Part shown: positions 2,336 through 11,756 of the stretch, one piece after another
How positions within the stretch are numbered: the first letter of the stretch is position 1
Layout of the letters: each line of letters begins with the position of its first letter
Origin: Polyangiaceae bacterium
GTDB lineage: Bacteria > Myxococcota_A > Polyangia > Polyangiales > Polyangiaceae
DNA: 64,000 nucleotides
Assembly: GCA_029941785.1 (NCBI GenBank)
Contig: JAPYTK010000001.1
Location: forward strand, 1-64,000
Direction of reading: 5' to 3'
The notes under the pieces: model-generated
Database searches by the model: none
What the model saw: the letters and a program-made list of their open reading frames with translations, nothing else
Told to the model about the DNA's origin: nothing
Made by a program: the position numbers and the translations under genes

Positions 2336-3166
2336 ATGAGTGACGATATGCGGTTCATGCGCCGAGCTCTGGCATTGGCCGAGCCCGGTCTGGGAAGAGT
2401 CTGGCCCAATCCCTCGGTGGGCTGTCTTTTGGTCAACCGAGGCGAGGTGGTCGGCGAGGCACGCACGGCGGACGGAGGACGGCCGCACGCCGAGCCTCTT
2501 GCTCTAGCGAAAGCTGGCCAAGCAGCCATGGGGGCCACAGCGTACGTGTCCCTCGAACCCTGCAGCCATGTCGGGGAAACCTCGCCATGCACCGAGGCCC
2601 TCATTGCGGCAAAGGTCAGACGTGTGCTGGTAGCGATCTGCGATCCGGATCCCCGCGTCAACGGACGGGGGATCGCGCAGCTCCGGGACGCTTCCGTCGA
2701 AGTCGAGGTCGGACTTCTCGCCGCCAAAGCAGCGCAGATGAATGTCGGGTTTTTCCAACGTATTCAGACCGGGCAACCACTCATCCACGCGCTCGAGTCG
2801 GGCGCGCCCCCGCCGGAGCACGGATATGACGCTCACCTGATGGCCCAGAGCGACATCGCCAACGGAGCGCTCAACGGCCACCTGACTTCAGCGGCGGCGG
2901 CCGTCCGCATCTTGGTGGCGCCAACGCTCGATGAGGCCGCGAAGAACCAGCTTGGCACGTGGAGCGACGAAGGTCCGACGTGGCTGGTATCTTCCTCGCG
3001 CCGAGACGACCTCCCGACGGGCGTCGAGCTCATCGTGGTCGATGACGACAGCGGGGACGCCGAGCCGGTGTGGCAGCAGGGCGTGGTCGATGCCCTGGGC
3101 AACCGTGGACTGACGCGGGTGCTCACCGGCGGTCGCCTCAGCGCGTGGGCGACCGAGGAATCGTGA
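2336..3166 (+). CDS. ribD: RibD-type deaminase with degenerate, shortened reductase domain
   Basis: The N-terminal 150 residues are a riboflavin-pathway pyrimidine deaminase: MRRALALAEPGLGRVWPNPSVG, zinc motif HAEPLAL, and SLEPCSHVGETSPC carrying the two further zinc cysteines. RibD deaminates the GTP-derived pyrimidine and then reduces the ribose side chain. Here the C-terminal half is only about 120 residues. The usual substrate-binding segment with 'SLDGKIA' and the GG..L tail are missing or unrecognisable; LGTWSDEGPTWLVSS and LGNRGLTRVLTGG are faint reminders of the fold. The length is 276 residues against roughly 360 for bifunctional RibD. The start chosen is ATG 2336, 8 bp after the upstream stop; the track frame begins too early inside gene 642. 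The reductase step probably needs another protein. Confidence 0.8.
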   Translation: MSDDMRFMRRALALAEPGLGRVWPNPSVGCLLVNRGEVVGEARTADGGRPHAEPLALAKAGQAAMGATAYVSLEPCSHVGETSPCTEALIAAKVRRVLVAICDPDPRVNGRGIAQLRDASVEVEVGLLAAKAAQMNVGFFQRIQTGQPLIHALESGAPPPEHGYDAHLMAQSDIANGALNGHLTSAAAAVRILVAPTLDEAAKNQLGTWSDEGPTWLVSSSRRDDLPTGVELIVVDDDSGDAEPVWQQGVVDALGNRGLTRVLTGGRLSAWATEES

Positions 3167-4149
3167 AGCGAATCTCTCTTCGCGTACGACCCATCGCAGG
3201 CGCGGCGCTTGCCGCGCTCGTAGCCTGCACGAACGCGCCCGGCCCGAAAACCGAGACGAAAACGGACGCCTGGCTCAACGTGCTCAGCGTGAACGTCGGA
3301 AACCTCGATGAGGTGGTCGACAAGACCTGCGGGGTCGCGCCTTACCAGGGCGGGCTCTGCTCGATTGCCCAAGAAGAAATCATCGCCGCTAACCTGGCCC
3401 GCTTGCGCCCCGACGTCGCCTTCTTGACCGAACTCGTCGACTCCGGGCGCTGCGAGGCCGACAGCTGGGAAGGCGACACCGATCTGCTCTGCACCGGCGC
3501 GCCAGATCGGGACCCCAAGGAACAAGTGCGGCGTCTCGTCGGCGACGACTACACCATCAGCTGCGCCAGCACCCACGCCACGTGCGTCGCGGTGCTCAGC
3601 GAGCGCGTGACCCTCCACGGCTGCGCCGCGGGCGAACTGTGCCTCGACGGCAACGACACCGCGCCCCACCCTGACGCGTGTGGGACGATGGGATCGCGCA
3701 CCAGCGTGTCGCGCATCGACGCCACTGTCGATGACGTCAGCTTCGCGCTCATCCCGGTTCACGCGCTCAACGCGCTCAACCAAGACGAAGATCCCTGCCG
3801 GCTCGCGCAATTCAATCTGGCCTTGGAGGACGTGTCGACGGGCGCCGACGCCCTGATCGCGGGCGACTGGAACATGGACCCCTACCGCGCACCTGACGCC
3901 TTTCCGTCCGGCATCTACTGGCACACCCAGGTCGGACCCGAAGCGCGCTTCACGGCCCACAACGTCCCAGGCGACGGCTCCACGCCCACGCCCACCTGGG
4001 CGACCGCCGCCACCCTCGATTTTGTGTTGAGCGATTTTTTGCAGGGGGAGTGCGACGTGCTTGGGGAGACGGAGGGCACGACACGAATCGACGGCGAGGA
4101 CCTCGCGACGATGGACCACCGTGCGGTGTGGTGCGCCCTCTCGCGCTGA
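3163..4149 (+). CDS. Lipoprotein of the endonuclease/exonuclease/phosphatase (EEP) family
   Basis: Start GTG 3163 overlaps the ribD stop (GTGA) and follows a GAGG box; it gives a lipoprotein signal ending ALAALVAC. The mature protein has the EEP order of motifs: LNVLSVNVGNLD near the N-terminus, LRPDVAFLTEL with the metal-binding glutamate, GDWNMDPYRAP matching the GD.N catalytic motif, LDFVLSD, and MDHRAVWCAL matching the terminal D-H pair. The family includes DNase I-like nucleases and phosphodiesterases that use Mg or Ca. Its many cysteines fit an exported protein with disulfides. It heads the run of exported proteins 3163-8879. Whether the substrate is nucleic acid, phospholipid or a sugar phosphate cannot be decided. 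Confidence 0.8.
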   Translation: MKRISLRVRPIAGAALAALVACTNAPGPKTETKTDAWLNVLSVNVGNLDEVVDKTCGVAPYQGGLCSIAQEEIIAANLARLRPDVAFLTELVDSGRCEADSWEGDTDLLCTGAPDRDPKEQVRRLVGDDYTISCASTHATCVAVLSERVTLHGCAAGELCLDGNDTAPHPDACGTMGSRTSVSRIDATVDDVSFALIPVHALNALNQDEDPCRLAQFNLALEDVSTGADALIAGDWNMDPYRAPDAFPSGIYWHTQVGPEARFTAHNVPGDGSTPTPTWATAATLDFVLSDFLQGECDVLGETEGTTRIDGEDLATMDHRAVWCALSR

Positions 4150-4165
4150 GGTAGCATCGCGGGCG

Positions 4166-4762
4166 ATGGACAAGCCGCACTTTCGATCGCCCTTCGTCAC
4201 CATATTGGCCACGAGCGCCCTGCTCGGCGCCAGCGGTTGCAAAGGCGCCGACGCTCCCACTGGCAACCCACCGGCAGATTCTCAACAGGTCCCACCCGAG
4301 GAGTACGGCAACCCGCCTGGGCCCGATCCCGAGCCCACCGCGTCAGCGGCCGACGGCGGAAACGGCCTGCCGAACTGGGGCGACATCAAGTCGAGTCACC
4401 CCGAGGGCGCGACAAACCCGCCCAGCCCCATCCTCACCCTCACCCGCACCGGCGAGTGCCTGAAGAGCTTCGAGGGCGGGATAGGCGGAGCCCCCCGAGA
4501 CACGAAATTTGAGACCTTCGGTGACGGCCGCTACTACGTCCGCATCGTCGCCGACCTCGAGGCGGCCAAAAAGTGGCGGACCACCGTCGTTCAGTGTCCC
4601 GCGGGCGCGAAGGAATTCCTCGCCACGCAAGAGGCGCCGGCCGCGAGCGCATCGACCCCCCAGATCCTCCGCAACCCGCCCCGACCGCTTGTGCCGCCGA
4701 AGCCCCGACCCAGGGGAAACCCGCCTGGGCCGCGCCCGCCGGGCTCCGGCGCAAAGAAATAG
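4166..4762 (+). CDS. Proline-rich lipoprotein, unknown function
   Basis: The start is taken at ATG 4166, 16 bp after the EEP gene; the earlier track start lies inside that gene. The N-terminus is a lipoprotein signal with lipobox LLGASGC. A low-complexity Pro/Gly/Asp region follows. The centre has a short folded-looking segment (LTRTGECLKSFEGG, then DGRYYVRIVADLEAAKKW, TTVVQCPAGAKEF). The C-terminus is a basic Pro-rich tail ending PRPPGSGAKK. I recognise no family. The two central cysteines could form a disulfide. Its position between two putative exported nucleases suggests a partner or anchoring role, which is inference only. Confidence 0.6.
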   Translation: MDKPHFRSPFVTILATSALLGASGCKGADAPTGNPPADSQQVPPEEYGNPPGPDPEPTASAADGGNGLPNWGDIKSSHPEGATNPPSPILTLTRTGECLKSFEGGIGGAPRDTKFETFGDGRYYVRIVADLEAAKKWRTTVVQCPAGAKEFLATQEAPAASASTPQILRNPPRPLVPPKPRPRGNPPGPRPPGSGAKK

Positions 4763-4839
4763 CCGCGCTCCCCGCTTGGTGCACCGGGCGCGTCGCTTGA
4801 CGTCGATCCAAGTCGGCCGTACAGCCCAGCGAGATTGCC

Positions 4840-5814
4840 GTGATGCGATTGCCTTCGAAAATACGTCCAAGAATCGCGCTGCTCGCGCTGACCGCGGCCG
4901 CCGCCGGCTGGATGGCTTCCGCTCCCGAGGCCGAGGCCCAGCCGGTCAGCATGGTGCTGCTCAATGGGCGCGCGACGCCCGTCTTCTACAACGACGGCGA
5001 TACCTATCGTCCGCTCGCTGGCCCCTTGCGGCAACGCAGCGCCCGCCTCGGCGGCTTCAACACGCTCGAAAGCTACGGCCCGGCCCATCAGTGGGGCGAC
5101 TGGACCTTCAAGGAGCTGTACGTGATGGCCAAACTCGGCACGCTCAACGCGCGTCGAGGGATCTGGAACTGCACCGCCGATCCGACCGAGCTCGATGGCT
5201 ACGGCCGGATCCTGGCCGATTGCCCCGATTTGGCCACGGATCAGATCCTCAAGGGCCTCGCCCACGCCATGAGCGTCGACGGCCCGGCGGCGCGGCCCTA
5301 CATCGAAGCCCAGCGCAAGGCCATCGTCGCGCGTCGTGGGATCTGGGCCAAGGGCGTACCGCCGATGGTCATGACCAGTCTTCACTCCGCCGACGAGCGC
5401 TACAACAACAAGAACAACTACAACCGCTTGGTGTCGGCCCTCGATGGCGCCTCGCTCAAGTGGAGGCACCAGAAAATCTTCAAGGAGTGCGAAAAGGTCT
5501 GCCACCCCGCGAAGATGCTCACGAAAAAGGCCGCCGCCGTGGTCATCGCCGCCCTGCGCGCCGACAGCCGCACGAGCAAGCTCGTCCACGGAATGGAAGA
5601 CGTCTACCTCGGCGCCATGCTCAACGAGTACGCCACGACCGACGGCGTCCCGCAGATCTTCAAAGGCCACGGACACAAGGTCGTGGCCCTCGTGCTCGGT
5701 GAACTCAAGGCCGCGAGCTCCTTTGGCACACTGCGTGATGTCAAGGGCGCCTGCATGATGCACGTGTTGTTTCAACGCCGCTACCAGGGCAAACCCGAGT
5801 GCTTGAAGTGGTAA
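4840..5814 (+). CDS. Secreted staphylococcal-nuclease-like (SNase) protein
   Basis: An N-terminal signal peptide ends near PEAEAQP. The next 150 residues follow the SNase (thermonuclease) fold: FYNDGDTYRPL matches the V.DGDT Ca-binding motif, RLGGFNTLESYGP matches R..GI..PE with the catalytic Arg, and ELDGYGRILADC matches D.YGR.LA. After these, YIEAQRKAIVARRGIWAKG corresponds to the conserved AQ..A...R.G.W helix. SNases cut DNA and RNA using Ca. About 140 residues beyond the usual domain have no clear assignment. The product is 324 residues from GTG 4840, or 323 from ATG 4843. It lies 8 bp upstream of the acidic-repeat lipoprotein, so it is almost certainly in the same transcript. Confidence 0.8.
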   Translation: MMRLPSKIRPRIALLALTAAAAGWMASAPEAEAQPVSMVLLNGRATPVFYNDGDTYRPLAGPLRQRSARLGGFNTLESYGPAHQWGDWTFKELYVMAKLGTLNARRGIWNCTADPTELDGYGRILADCPDLATDQILKGLAHAMSVDGPAARPYIEAQRKAIVARRGIWAKGVPPMVMTSLHSADERYNNKNNYNRLVSALDGASLKWRHQKIFKECEKVCHPAKMLTKKAAAVVIAALRADSRTSKLVHGMEDVYLGAMLNEYATTDGVPQIFKGHGHKVVALVLGELKAASSFGTLRDVKGACMMHVLFQRRYQGKPECLKW

Positions 5815-5822
5815 CGAAACCC

Positions 5823-7088
5823 ATGTCCCGACGACGCACCCCGCTGTTTCTGTTGCCCGCGCTCCTGCTCGCCCTCGGTGCTGCCTCCAGCTGTGATTGG
5901 CAGGCGCCGGCTCGCCCGATCACCGGCTACGAGACCGAAGACTTCAAGTGCAGCGACGGCAAGGACAACGACAACGACGGGCTGATCGATTGCGAAGATC
6001 CCGACTGCATCTTCACCTCGGGCAACTGCGGGCAAGACATCCCTAACCCGCCCCAAGATCTGGTGCCCGAAAACACCCTCGAGCTGTGCATCGACAGCAT
6101 CGACAACGACGACAACGGCAAGTTCGATTGCGGTGACAACAAGTGCCGCGACATCGCCGAGGTGTGCTGCGTGCGCGAATTCGACGACACCAGCTGCTCG
6201 GATGGCATCGACAACGATGGCAACGGCTTCGCCGATTGCGAAGACTTCACCTGCCGCAACGGCATTTTCGTCACGGTCTGCAGCGAGAGCGCCGAGACGA
6301 CGTGCAGCGACGGCAAGGACAACGACGGCGACGGCTTCGTCGATTGCGAAGACAGTGGATGCAGCATCGTCGCCGCGTGCAGTCCGACCTGCGCGCAGGG
6401 TGATCCCTGCTTTGGTGCCGAAACCACCCTCGCCTTCTGCCAAGACGGGAAAGACAACGACGGCAACGGCTTCATCGACTGCGAAGACTTCAGCTGCTCG
6501 AAAGCCGCTGATCAAACCATCTTGGACCATTGCGCCACGCAGATGGGCGAAGAGGAAACTTCTCTCGCGGCGTGCTCCGATGGTGAAGACAACGATGGCA
6601 ATGGCTTTACGGATTGCGACGATTTCTCATGCAGCAAGTCATCGGACGCCGCGGTCCTTGCCCATTGCGCCGAGCAATTGAAGGACCAAGAAGTCGATCT
6701 GGCCAAGTGCTCCGACGGCATCGATAATGACGAGAACGGCTACACGGACTGCGCAGACTATTCTTGCTCGCAAAGCGAAGACGCCGAGGTGGTCGAGTAC
6801 TGCGCCGAACGCCTCGAGAACACCTTCGAGCGATGCAGCGACGGCATCGACAACGACGGCAACGGCCACACAGATTGTGGCGACTTTTCCTGCCGCACCG
6901 CCGACGATCTGATCGTGAAAGCCGCCTGCCAGGAGAGCTTGGGCGACGACTCCGGCCAGGTCGACGCCCAGTGCTCGGACGGCAAAGACAACGACGGCGA
7001 CAGCTTCGTCGACTGTGACGATTGGGATTGCAGCTGGAATCCCCTGGTCACGGTGTGCCCGGGAGCGGGAGAACGTGTCTGCGAGTAG
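5823..7088 (+). CDS. Lipoprotein built of nine Cys-rich acidic CSDGxDNDxDG repeats
   Basis: ATG 5823 gives a signal (MSRRRTPLFLLPALLLALG) ending in ASSC, a plausible though imperfect lipobox. Nearly the whole mature protein (421 residues) consists of units of the type CSDGKDNDGDGFVDCED. I count nine, separated by spacers of roughly 15-40 residues. Each unit has an Asp/Asn-rich loop, D.DNDGDG..DC.D, like a single EF-hand-type Ca loop, bracketed by cysteines. This is the 'putative metal-binding motif' found in MopE-like and myxobacterial surface proteins. Inference: rigid, disulfide-linked, Ca-loaded surface rod or binding protein. The downstream barrel protein has three more of the same units. 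Confidence 0.75.
   Translation: MSRRRTPLFLLPALLLALGAASSCDWQAPARPITGYETEDFKCSDGKDNDNDGLIDCEDPDCIFTSGNCGQDIPNPPQDLVPENTLELCIDSIDNDDNGKFDCGDNKCRDIAEVCCVREFDDTSCSDGIDNDGNGFADCEDFTCRNGIFVTVCSESAETTCSDGKDNDGDGFVDCEDSGCSIVAACSPTCAQGDPCFGAETTLAFCQDGKDNDGNGFIDCEDFSCSKAADQTILDHCATQMGEEETSLAACSDGEDNDGNGFTDCDDFSCSKSSDAAVLAHCAEQLKDQEVDLAKCSDGIDNDENGYTDCADYSCSQSEDAEVVEYCAERLENTFERCSDGIDNDGNGHTDCGDFSCRTADDLIVKAACQESLGDDSGQVDAQCSDGKDNDGDSFVDCDDWDCSWNPLVTVCPGAGERVCE
5949..7031 (+). repeat. Nine coding repeats of a Cys-bracketed acidic loop
   Basis: The protein-level repeat is C-[SQI]-D-[GS]-x-D-N-D-x-[DN]-[GS]-x-x-D-C-x-D. The nine copies are not identical in DNA: codons for Asp, Gly and Cys differ between units, so this is an old, diverged array rather than a recent expansion. 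Spacer lengths also vary, which is against a strict tandem repeat. Confidence 0.8.
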
Positions 7089-7127
7089 CGCTCGCAGCAA
7101 GACGACAAGAGAAAAGCGAAGAGTACG

Positions 7128-8879
7128 ATGACCGCAAAAGCAAAACCACGCACAAGCATGACCTTGGCCCTCGCCTTCGTCGCAACTTTTGGTTTCACGA
7201 CGAGCGCCTTCGCGCAAGCCAAGCCCGAGGAGGCCCCCGCCGAGCCAGCGCCCGCAGAAGCTGAGGCGAAAACGGAAGCGGCTCCACCGGCCCCGACCGA
7301 AGCGGCTCCAGAGCCCCCGTCCGAAGCGGCTCCAGAGACCGCGGCGAGCACGAGCGCCGAGGATGACGAGCCACCTGCACCCGTTCTCAAGATCGAAACG
7401 AACTGCACCGATCGCATCGACAACGACAACGACTCGGTGGTCGATTGCGCAGACGCGGACTGCATCGACAAACCCGTGTGTCAACCCAAGGGTGAGCAGG
7501 AGGCGACCGATCTTCTCTGCAGCGATTGGATCGACAACGACGGCGACGGGCAGATGGATTGCGACGACATGGACTGCCAAGCCGCCGGGATCACGGCCTG
7601 CAAGGGCTCATGGCGCGGCAGCGAATCGGGCCTCAAAGGACAGACATCGCGCAAGATTCAAATCGATGCTCCCAGCCTCGACGAAGGCGTTTCCGTCGAA
7701 GAACTGATCGGCAAACTCGGAGATCAAGACGGCGAGCGAAACGACTACCTGTGCTCCGACGGCATCGACAACGATGGCGATGGCCGCACCGACTGCGCCG
7801 ACTTTGGTTGCCGTTTCGATCGCAGCGTCTCGGTATGCAACCCCCAGCCCGGATTTCGCTTCGGCATCGCGGGTCGCGTGCAGCAAAGCTACCGCATCCA
7901 GGACACCCGCAAGAGCGAACTCAATCTGAATGATTGGGACACCCGATTCAGCTTGCTCCAGCTTCGCTTTCTGGGACCGATCTCGAACATCGAGAACAGC
8001 TTCTTCCTGGTGAACATGCGCGTCGAGAAGACGCCCCGCGTCACCTTCGCCATGGCGCAACTTCCCATCGGTGGTGGCGGACACTACTTCAACCTCAACT
8101 CGGGCGGCGGCGGCATCTCGGGCGCGCTCATCGTGTCGACGACCAAAAGCTTGATGCTCGAGCCGGCCTACTTCGTCTACTCGGCCTTCGAGCAGGGTAA
8201 CGGGGCGGCAGTCGAGGGCGGAGGTCCGATCGACAAAAAGGGGATCGCGCATTTTCGCGTCTTCGCGGCCGGCGGCTCGGGTCGCTTCGCGGGCAACGTA
8301 GGTGGCCGTTTCTTCAGCGATGACAAGACCAACTACACCTGGGGCGCCGGCGGGCAGGTCAAGATCAACGCCATCGGCCACTACAACCGCTTCGACAGCG
8401 AGATGATGTACACGCCATCGGCTCAGCTGCTCGCCTTCGTGGTGGGCGGCAAGTACGACGAGCGAGCCCAAGAGCGCTACCCGTCGTGGAATGCGCAGGC
8501 GGTGTGGAAGTGGGGCCACTTTTACGTCAACGCCGAGAGCTACTTCAAGCGAGAACTCGCCTTTGGCTCCTGGCAGGTGTCGTACCTGGCCCGCGCCGGC
8601 TTTCTTCTCTGGCCGCGTCACCTCGCGATGGGCGTCGACTTCGGTGAGTTCCTATCGAGCGACTACGACAACCCGCCGCCCGCTGAAGAGGTGGGCGACG
8701 AGATTGAACGGATCCGCGACGAGCGACAAGCCCGCGCCGTGCTTCACTGGTTCGCCTACGGGCAGACCGGCCGCGTCTCGCTGCTGTACACCTACCGCGA
8801 CGTGAAGAAGAACGAGCAGTTTGACAAGGACGGCTACAAGCTGCAGGAACTGTCCCTGGCGGCCACCTACGTCTTTTAG
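7128..8879 (+). CDS. Outer-membrane beta-barrel (porin-like) with three N-terminal acidic Cys repeats
   Basis: A signal peptide ends at TSAFAQA. It is followed by an Ala/Pro/Glu-rich linker, then three CSDGIDNDGDG-type units (residues about 92-228). From about residue 240 to the end the sequence alternates polar and hydrophobic residues in the way of transmembrane beta-strands (FRFGIAGRVQQSYRI, RFSLLQLRFLGPI, GRVSLLYTYRDVK) and ends in ATYVF, the terminal aromatic of outer-membrane barrels. The barrel recalls phosphate-selective or short-chain porins in size. The repeats would face the periplasm or extend from the N-terminus. It follows the nine-repeat lipoprotein by 39 bp. The transported substrate is unknown. 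Confidence 0.75.
   Translation: MTAKAKPRTSMTLALAFVATFGFTTSAFAQAKPEEAPAEPAPAEAEAKTEAAPPAPTEAAPEPPSEAAPETAASTSAEDDEPPAPVLKIETNCTDRIDNDNDSVVDCADADCIDKPVCQPKGEQEATDLLCSDWIDNDGDGQMDCDDMDCQAAGITACKGSWRGSESGLKGQTSRKIQIDAPSLDEGVSVEELIGKLGDQDGERNDYLCSDGIDNDGDGRTDCADFGCRFDRSVSVCNPQPGFRFGIAGRVQQSYRIQDTRKSELNLNDWDTRFSLLQLRFLGPISNIENSFFLVNMRVEKTPRVTFAMAQLPIGGGGHYFNLNSGGGGISGALIVSTTKSLMLEPAYFVYSAFEQGNGAAVEGGGPIDKKGIAHFRVFAAGGSGRFAGNVGGRFFSDDKTNYTWGAGGQVKINAIGHYNRFDSEMMYTPSAQLLAFVVGGKYDERAQERYPSWNAQAVWKWGHFYVNAESYFKRELAFGSWQVSYLARAGFLLWPRHLAMGVDFGEFLSSDYDNPPPAEEVGDEIERIRDERQARAVLHWFAYGQTGRVSLLYTYRDVKKNEQFDKDGYKLQELSLAATYVF
7403..7811 (+). repeat. Three CSDGxDNDxDG-type repeats in the barrel protein
   Basis: Units CTDRIDNDNDSVVDCADADC, LLCSDWIDNDGDGQMDC and LCSDGIDNDGDGRTDC have the same Cys-bracketed Asp/Asn loop as the preceding lipoprotein. 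They are spaced irregularly; the last is adjacent to the barrel. Confidence 0.8.
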
Positions 8880-8972: not shown

Positions 8973-11756
8973 ATGAGCACGCCTTCCAAGCTGCCGGCCG
9001 CCGGCTCCGACGACGTTTTGTACATCGTCGATCTCTCGGGCTACATCTTTCGCGCCTACCACGCGATCCCCGAGCTCTCGAGTCCGAGCGGCGAGCCCAC
9101 CAATGCGACCTACGGCACGCTCAACATGCTGATCCGCATGATCGCCGATCGACGCCCGAGCCACATGGCGATCACGATGGACAGCAGAGGGCGAGGCCTG
9201 CGGGGCAAGATCGATCCGAAATACAAGGCCAACCGCCCCCCAGCCCCGCCCGACCTACCGCCACAAATGGTCCGCTGCCGCGAGCTCGTGGAGGCCTACG
9301 GGATGCCCGTGTTCAGCACGCCGGAGTACGAAGCGGACGATCAGATCGCGACCCTGACCAAGCGGGCGCGTGAGGCAGGGCTCAAGGTGGTCATCGCCTC
9401 GAGCGACAAAGATCTGTTGCAACTCATCGAGCAAGAGGGCGTCTGGATGTGGGACGCGATGCGCGACCGGGTGTTCGGCCCGGCCGAGGTCGAGTCCAAA
9501 TACGGCGTCGGACCCGACAAGATGGGCGATCTGCTCGCGCTCGTCGGTGACAATTCCGACAACATCGCTGGCGTCCCCGGGGTGGGCCCCAAGACAGCAG
9601 CAAAGCTGCTTGCCCAATACGGAGACATCGACGGGATCTACGCCCATCTCGATGAGATCAAGCGACCCAAGCTCAACCAGTCACTGAGCGACAACCACGA
9701 TGCCGCCAAGCTCGCCCAACGCTTGGTCGAGCTGCAAGATGTGCCCGATCTGAGCTTTGACGAGGTCGCGCTACGCTTTGGTGGCGCCGATACGACGAAA
9801 CTACGCGCACTGTTCGAAGAGCTGGGCTTCAACCGTTTGCTCGATCGCCTTGAGGCGCCAGCACCCGACCAACCGTCCTGTGTGCCGCACGCAGCGACCG
9901 CGATCGACGCCACACCACCCGACGCGGCGGAGGCCACAGCCGACAGCGAAAAGGACACAACGGTCCAGACCGCGAGCGTCATCCTGACGGCGGCCGAGCT
10001 GGCAGACTGGGCGCAGCAGATACGGGACGCAGGCTGCGTGGCGATCATCGCATTCGGCACCGATGTCGAACCCATGCGCAGCCCGCTGACAGGGATCGCT
10101 CTCGCAACCCCAAGCGCTTCGGCCTATCTCCCCCTCGAGCATCGTTTGCTCGGCTCTCCGACGCAGCTACCCCTCGACCAGGTGCGCGAGCTGCTGGGCC
10201 CCGTATTGGCCGACACCAGCATCGCCAAGCTCGGACACGACTTGAAGTACACCCAAGTGCTGCTCGGCAAGCACGGCCTCGACCTCAGGGGCGGCACGCT
10301 CGACACCATGCTCGCGAGCTACCTGATCGATCCGGAATCCAGCCATAAGCTGCTGGTGCTCGCCGAACGTGAGGCCGGCATCCGCCTAGCGACTTTCGAG
10401 AGCATCGCGCCGCGGGCCAAGCGGGGATCCAAGCCCACCGCACAAGACGTCGAGGTCGAGGTTCTTGCGCCGTACGCGACGAGCCAAGTGGAGGCCATCT
10501 TCGCGCTGCGGTCGCGGTTCGAAGCCCATTTGGACGGCAATGATCTCGGCAAACTGAATCGCTCGCTCGAGCTTCCCTTGTCCGAGATCCTCTCGCGCAT
10601 GGAGCGATACGGCGTGCGTATCGAAGCGGTCCCACTGAAGCAGCTCGGCTTGCAAATGGCTGACGAACTCGCCCGCCTCGAAACCGCCGCCTTCGAGGCC
10701 GCCGGCAAACCGTTCAACCTCGGATCCCCAAAACAACTCGAGGCCATCCTGTACGACGAGCTACAGCTCAAATCGACGAAGAAGACGAAAACCGGACGCT
10801 CGACGGACGCCGAGTCCCTCGAGGCGATCAAGGATGACCACCCTCTCCCGAAACTCGTGCTCGATCACCGCGCGGTCGCCAAGTTGAAGAGCACCTACGT
10901 CGACGCGCTCCCCAGGCTCATCCACAGCGACACCGGTCGCGTGCACACTCGCTGGGAGCAAGCCGTCGCCGCGACCGGGCGCTTGTCCTCCAAGGATCCC
11001 AATCTGCAGAACATTCCGATCCGAAGCGAGCACGGGAAGAAGATCCGCGAAGCCTTCACGGCTCCGGAGGGTATGCTCATTCTGAGCGCGGACTACTCGC
11101 AAATCGAGCTGCGGGTGTTAGCCCACCTCTCTCAAGATCCCAAGCTCGTCGAAGCCTTCAACGCCGGTCAAGACGTCCATGTACGCACCGCGATGGAGAT
11201 CTTCGGTGTGGCCGAAGAAGAGGTTACGGCGGAGATGCGCTCACAGAGCAAGACGGTCAACTTCGGCGTGATCTACGGCATGGGATCAGTGGCCCTCGCC
11301 AAGCGGCTCGGAATTACACGCAAGGAGGCCAAGTCCTTCATCGACGCCTACTTCGAGCGCTACGAGGGCGTGCGCCACTACATGGCTGACACGCTCGAGC
11401 GAGCCAAAGCGGACGGCGTGGTGCACACCATGCTGGGTCGACAACGCGTCTTGCGGGACATCGGCAGCAAGCACCACGGTAAGCGCGCCTACGCCGAGCG
11501 CATCGCCCAGAACACGCCGATCCAAGGCAGCGCCGCGGACCTGCTCAAGCTCGCCATGCTCGCCTTCACCGAGCCTGTCGTCGAAGGAGCGCGCATGGTG
11601 TTGACGGTGCACGACGAGTTGGTCTTCGAGGTGCCTGCCGAGCACATTGACGGGGCGACGGCCGAAACGAAAATGCGCATGGAGTCCATTTTTGACATGA
11701 GCGTTCCCCTTGTCGTGGATATCGGGTCCGGCGAGAGCTGGGCCGAAGCGCATTGA
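8973..11756 (+). CDS. polA: DNA polymerase I, with apparently inactive 3'-5' exonuclease domain
   Basis: This is a full-length Pol I (927 residues) for gap filling and Okazaki-primer removal. The 5'-3' exonuclease domain is at the N-terminus (YIVDLSGYIFRAYHA, EYEADDQIATL, VGDNSDNIAGVPGVGPKTA). The polymerase domain is intact: DYSQIELRVLAHLS (about 707), TVNFGVIYGMG (about 762) and VHDELVFEVP (about 879). In the middle domain the proofreading motifs are lost. The DTET-type motif reads AFGTDVEP near residue 350, the NLKYD motif reads DLKYTQ near 420, and the Y...D motif reads YATSQ near 500. It probably cannot proofread, as in Taq-type Pol I. The start is ATG 8973. Confidence 0.95.
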   Translation: MSTPSKLPAAGSDDVLYIVDLSGYIFRAYHAIPELSSPSGEPTNATYGTLNMLIRMIADRRPSHMAITMDSRGRGLRGKIDPKYKANRPPAPPDLPPQMVRCRELVEAYGMPVFSTPEYEADDQIATLTKRAREAGLKVVIASSDKDLLQLIEQEGVWMWDAMRDRVFGPAEVESKYGVGPDKMGDLLALVGDNSDNIAGVPGVGPKTAAKLLAQYGDIDGIYAHLDEIKRPKLNQSLSDNHDAAKLAQRLVELQDVPDLSFDEVALRFGGADTTKLRALFEELGFNRLLDRLEAPAPDQPSCVPHAATAIDATPPDAAEATADSEKDTTVQTASVILTAAELADWAQQIRDAGCVAIIAFGTDVEPMRSPLTGIALATPSASAYLPLEHRLLGSPTQLPLDQVRELLGPVLADTSIAKLGHDLKYTQVLLGKHGLDLRGGTLDTMLASYLIDPESSHKLLVLAEREAGIRLATFESIAPRAKRGSKPTAQDVEVEVLAPYATSQVEAIFALRSRFEAHLDGNDLGKLNRSLELPLSEILSRMERYGVRIEAVPLKQLGLQMADELARLETAAFEAAGKPFNLGSPKQLEAILYDELQLKSTKKTKTGRSTDAESLEAIKDDHPLPKLVLDHRAVAKLKSTYVDALPRLIHSDTGRVHTRWEQAVAATGRLSSKDPNLQNIPIRSEHGKKIREAFTAPEGMLILSADYSQIELRVLAHLSQDPKLVEAFNAGQDVHVRTAMEIFGVAEEEVTAEMRSQSKTVNFGVIYGMGSVALAKRLGITRKEAKSFIDAYFERYEGVRHYMADTLERAKADGVVHTMLGRQRVLRDIGSKHHGKRAYAERIAQNTPIQGSAADLLKLAMLAFTEPVVEGARMVLTVHDELVFEVPAEHIDGATAETKMRMESIFDMSVPLVVDIGSGESWAEAH

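Follow-up and report, generated by a model that had tools for sequence, protein, structure and literature searches.

The SNase-like exported protein (SNl), the acidic repeat lipoprotein and the predicted porin-type barrel described here are the products of an obligate three-gene operon of Myxococcota, read from a 64,000-nucleotide stretch of a Polyangiaceae genome (the window; Table 1). Their folds are known, while the strictly co-inherited operon of nuclease, Ca-repeat lipoprotein and porin appears to be undescribed. The first-pass annotation knew of no described system with this gene set, and a search of the open-licence literature likewise found no published description of such an operon. 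Judging by the genes that flank the operon in other species, it may encode a cell-envelope machine, so far undescribed, for the processing or import of DNA. The chances are judged even that the three products make up a Ca-scaffolded nuclease-porin module, which would process DNA at the outer membrane, either to take it up or to scavenge it.

Table 1. The conserved operon and its upstream neighbours, with positions counted from the first nucleotide of the window.
Feature	Position	Strand	Description
EEP-like lipoprotein	3163..4149	+	PF03372 below cut-off; neighbour outside the conserved unit
Pro-rich lipoprotein	4166..4762	+	no Pfam family in the profile search; neighbour outside the conserved unit
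SNase-like exported protein (SNl)	4843..5814	+	323 aa, signal peptide; core gene 1 of the operon
Acidic repeat lipoprotein	5823..7088	+	421 aa, nine predicted Ca-loop double-disulfide repeats (NF033662); core gene 2
Predicted 16-strand porin-type barrel	7128..8879	+	583 aa, N-terminal domain with three predicted Ca-loop repeats; core gene 3

All five adjacent plus-strand reading frames named in the first-pass annotation were confirmed. They are separated by gaps of 16, 80, 8 and 39 nt, the second of which falls to 77 nt if SNl starts at the GTG at 4840 instead of at 4843, and polA follows the barrel gene at 8973. A search for this five-gene order in other Myxococcota found that only the last three genes are kept together. 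The EEP-like and Pro-rich genes are missing from 80 of 80 related loci, as is polA, and the five-gene unit was therefore rejected in favour of a conserved unit of three. Homologues of the EEP-like lipoprotein occur in 10 of 97 relatives, unlinked to the operon. In the window, the GTG start codon of its gene (3163) overlaps the stop of an upstream RibD-like reading frame (3163-3166), which makes it look like the last gene of that upstream unit. The EEP identity itself is weak, with a PF03372 profile score below the gathering cut-off (E=0.003; 17.8 bits against 24.5), although NVGN, E, H, GDWNMD, LDFVL and DHR motifs are readable by eye.

Of 97 relatives, counting the window genome, 20 have a homologue of SNl, and in the loci read SNl, repeat lipoprotein and barrel keep the same order and direction on every contig that extends far enough. 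Named genomes, when scanned, yielded 80 SNl loci, some of them the same places as among the 97 relatives. The records concerned are assigned to Myxococcota or to unplaced bins of proteobacteria or bacteria, apart from one single-cell record that carries the name Hydrogenedens. The barrel lies downstream, with all three genes in order, in 67 of these 80 loci, and the contig ends too early in the remainder. Across 379 sampled Myxococcota genomes, 62 had a strong SNl match (E<1e-90) and 61 had the barrel, all 61 barrel genomes also carrying SNl; the sole SNl genome without a barrel match is G044, where the gene is cut by the contig end. The median intergenic gaps in the operon are -5.5 and 6 nt, as estimates from start codons picked by rule, and the three genes are probably translationally coupled.

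The SNase-like call for SNl was borne out by its family and its structural model. The window protein alone gave no PF00565 match in the profile search (below reporting) and none in a PDB sequence search, its sequence being too divergent for the Pfam cut-off. Among 16 members of its family, however, 15 matched PF00565 at E<=1 (best E=2.8e-4), and two relatives scored above the curated cut-off; an SNl profile searched against the PDB found weak thermonuclease matches only (E about 0.07). High-probability matches of the AlphaFold model (pLDDT 91.8) were solely to Staphylococcal nuclease and SND1 structures (1syb, E=9.8e-4, probability 1.00), and in this model SNl has an SNase (OB) fold. In SNase, Arg35, Glu43 and Arg87 are catalytic, and Asp21 and Asp40 are metal ligands, Asp40 for Ca. 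SNl shares with the PF00565 thermonucleases the equivalents of D21, R35, E43 and R87, which are invariant in 69 of 69 sequences, whereas the Asp40 position is Asn in all 69, leaving the metal and even the activity uncertain. Given the conserved catalytic residues, nuclease activity is likely. SNl further differs from the Staphylococcal nuclease family in six Cys and four His that are invariant in the 69 sequences, and in an extra C-terminal region. Short SNl forms without the middle insert (L152-L161, L164 and L167) occur in other Myxococcota groups. They are solitary, several are lipoproteins, and no informative shared neighbours were seen among the 12 loci read.

The nine lipoprotein repeats and three barrel repeats counted in the first-pass annotation all belong to NCBIfam family NF033662, far beyond chance (lipoprotein, E=3e-76, 250.8 bits, nine stretches; barrel, E=4.7e-29, 99.8 bits, three stretches; cut-off 41 bits). 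The definition of this family covers the repeat alone and does not include the operon context. In the window's own genome it has 42 matches, several in long frames outside the operon (contigs C16, C67, C292 and others). The proposal that the repeats are Ca loops is supported by a match to a structurally proven Ca domain, the C-rich domain of teneurin-4 (7PLP; barrel profile, E=7.6e-8; lipoprotein, E=3.2e-6), whose crystal structure holds three Ca bound via acidic residues and Asn844 (PMC9058538). The bacterial Cys pattern corresponds in spacing to the teneurin disulfides C838-C857 and C852-C863 (PMC9058538), and most Ca ligands are shared, although the Cys spacing and the Asp/Asn at +13 belong to the repeat search pattern and are no independent evidence. 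Among 857 family repeats, Asp occupies ligand positions +5, +7 and +16 in at least 98% and +2 in 86%. Compared with 7PLP, sites I and II are largely kept, while positions -3 and +18 vary, and because of the variable +18 the third Ca site would often be incomplete. The operon repeats are predicted, from their sequence, to bind Ca. The mature repeat lipoprotein has a net charge of -81 and SNl one of +14, which makes contact between this very acidic protein and the basic SNl plausible. A strict lipobox pattern is present in only 38 of 70 repeat lipoproteins; in examples of the rest, a hydrophobic stretch runs up to a Cys.

For the barrel, sequence searches of Pfam and the PDB matched the repeat and nothing further. 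Its model has 16 strands, with fold matches to OmpU (E=3.3e-10), OprP (E=7.1e-10), OmpC and OmpF, and is that of a 16-strand porin fold. Across the profile searches as a whole, weak DpdA, 5'-nucleotidase and TonB matches were dismissed as chance. The barrel is set apart from OmpU, OprP, OmpF and other 16-strand porins by its N-terminal domain of three Ca-loop repeats and by its obligate nuclease partner. Known barrels with an even number of strands have both termini in the periplasm, so the three N-terminal repeats most likely lie there, and on the modelled fold they probably face the periplasm and not the surface. For the apparatus proposed in the first-pass annotation, this makes the periplasmic side of the outer membrane a more probable site than the surface.

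The genes beside the operon in other lineages lend support to the earlier idea that it acts on nucleic acid. In one GTDB family (f27) the gene order is ExbB, ExbD, ExbD, SNl, lipoprotein, barrel, ComEC. This full order was found in L084, L099, L113, L126, L140, L145, L148, L150 and L151, and again in L179-L183, of which L181, L182 and L183 coincide with L145, L113 and L126, respectively. The ComEC, ExbB and ExbD assignments were confirmed by Pfam and NCBIfam, and the operon-adjacent ComEC is the only PF03772 copy in 12 of 12 f27 genomes tested. The ComEC linkage is confined to this family, and most carriers, including the window genome, have no ComEC linked to the operon. The linkage may go back to one ancestral event, yet it is kept across ComEC proteins at about 33-54% identity. 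In six genomes of another family (f3), the barrel gene is followed immediately by the sole canonical SNase, with a contig end at that point in G081, and in G044 the sole canonical SNase lies divergently upstream of the operon; a PF00565 search of the window genome found no canonical SNase. Linkage to the sole ComEC in f27 and to the sole SNase in others points to DNA processing in the envelope. If DNA is processed, predatory and environmental Myxococcota would have an outer-membrane nucleic-acid route in this operon, an idea that the ComEC linkage renders testable.

For the proposed module we infer nuclease activity, Ca binding, complex formation, a periplasmic placement and a purpose in uptake or feeding. 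SNl, as a divergent Staphylococcal-nuclease-fold enzyme with a signal peptide, would cut DNA or other nucleic acid at the outer membrane. The Ca-loaded repeats of the lipoprotein and the porin would form rigid rods that bring all three proteins together where the porin opens to the periplasm and that keep a local Ca pool for the nuclease. The porin would be the conduit for DNA fragments or nucleotides. ComEC is an inner-membrane DNA channel. In f27, with the module joined to ComEC and an ExbB/ExbD-type energiser, the products would continue into the cell, and in other lineages they may serve as nutrients. Four points count against a DNA-processing module: the ComEC linkage does not extend beyond f27 and may be one ancestral event, the SNase Ca ligand Asp40 is replaced by Asn throughout SNl, duplex DNA does not fit through a 16-strand porin, and the repeat is also present in many unrelated proteins of the window genome.

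In competence, nucleases such as NucA of Bacillus subtilis and pneumococcal EndA assist DNA uptake together with ComEC. The operon resembles these systems, in f27 only, in the genetic linkage of a predicted envelope nuclease to ComEC. It differs in that the nuclease is of another family, the envelope is diderm, and a dedicated porin and a Ca-repeat lipoprotein are present; a role in uptake is putative. PilQ-type secretin matches were found in 22 of 22 genomes tested, and small ComEA-type matches (TIGR00426, frames of 137-360 aa) in 6 of 6 genomes tested from f1 and f3. In contrast, none of 16 f27 genomes had a small ComEA-type HhH match to TIGR00426, the only matches being in frames of 472-825 aa, a negative that leaves room for a ComEA too divergent for the profile. 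A version of the module in which the Ca-scaffolded complex hands DNA to ComEC, and in f27 replaces the undetected small ComEA-type DNA receptor, is tentative and judged rather unlikely.

Phosphate or nucleotide feeding through the barrel, as suggested in the first-pass annotation, may take place, and one rival explanation is nutrient scavenging alone. Under this explanation, environmental or prey DNA would be degraded and the porin would admit nucleotides or phosphate, making the ComEC linkage in f27 incidental. The best fold matches of the barrel include OprP and OprO, some lineages have a second, canonical SNase next to the operon, and a linked ComEC is missing in most carriers, all of which favour scavenging. 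Against it, the lumen of the modelled barrel, read by strand parity, has only a mild positive charge and shows no clear arginine ladder, and no gene under phosphate control was seen among the operon's conserved neighbours. Scavenging as the only role is a minority possibility.

A structural or adhesive Ca-dependent assembly in the envelope, with SNl as a binding module instead of an enzyme, would fit the high repeat dose, which is mostly 8-12 per lipoprotein (18 in one) and exactly three in 62 of 63 barrels. The matching teneurin domain also stabilises a compact dimer (PMC9058538), and in every SNl the Asp40 position is Asn, which also speaks for such an assembly. Even so, such an assembly has a small chance of being the answer: none of the other SNase catalytic residues varies among the 69 sequences, which is unexpected for a dead enzyme, and a canonical SNase or ComEC repeatedly adjoins the operon. 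A barrier, in which the repeats hold the nuclease at the porin so that phage or transforming DNA entering the periplasm is destroyed, would suit the probable periplasmic repeats and conserved catalytic residues, but has a similarly small chance, as the operon is stable, vertically co-conserved and outside any defence island, and the ComEC linkage would oppose such a role; anti-phage defence was rejected after a PADLOC search gave no family matches.

Beyond the Ca-scaffolded nuclease-porin module, the repeat may bear on the origin of an animal protein domain. The teneurin C-rich domain was reported by its authors as unlike other known folds as a whole (PMC9058538). It belongs to an animal adhesion protein and is present in one copy with three disulfides, whereas the bacterial repeats often lack the third-site ligands. 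The sequence match suggests that the bacterial repeat is a relative, or the source, of this C-rich part, and so offers a bacterial relative of the teneurin Ca domain. Additionally, the operon has another repeat protein as a neighbour, in many cases upstream and divergent, at L071:5986-6858 and similarly in about 10 other loci.
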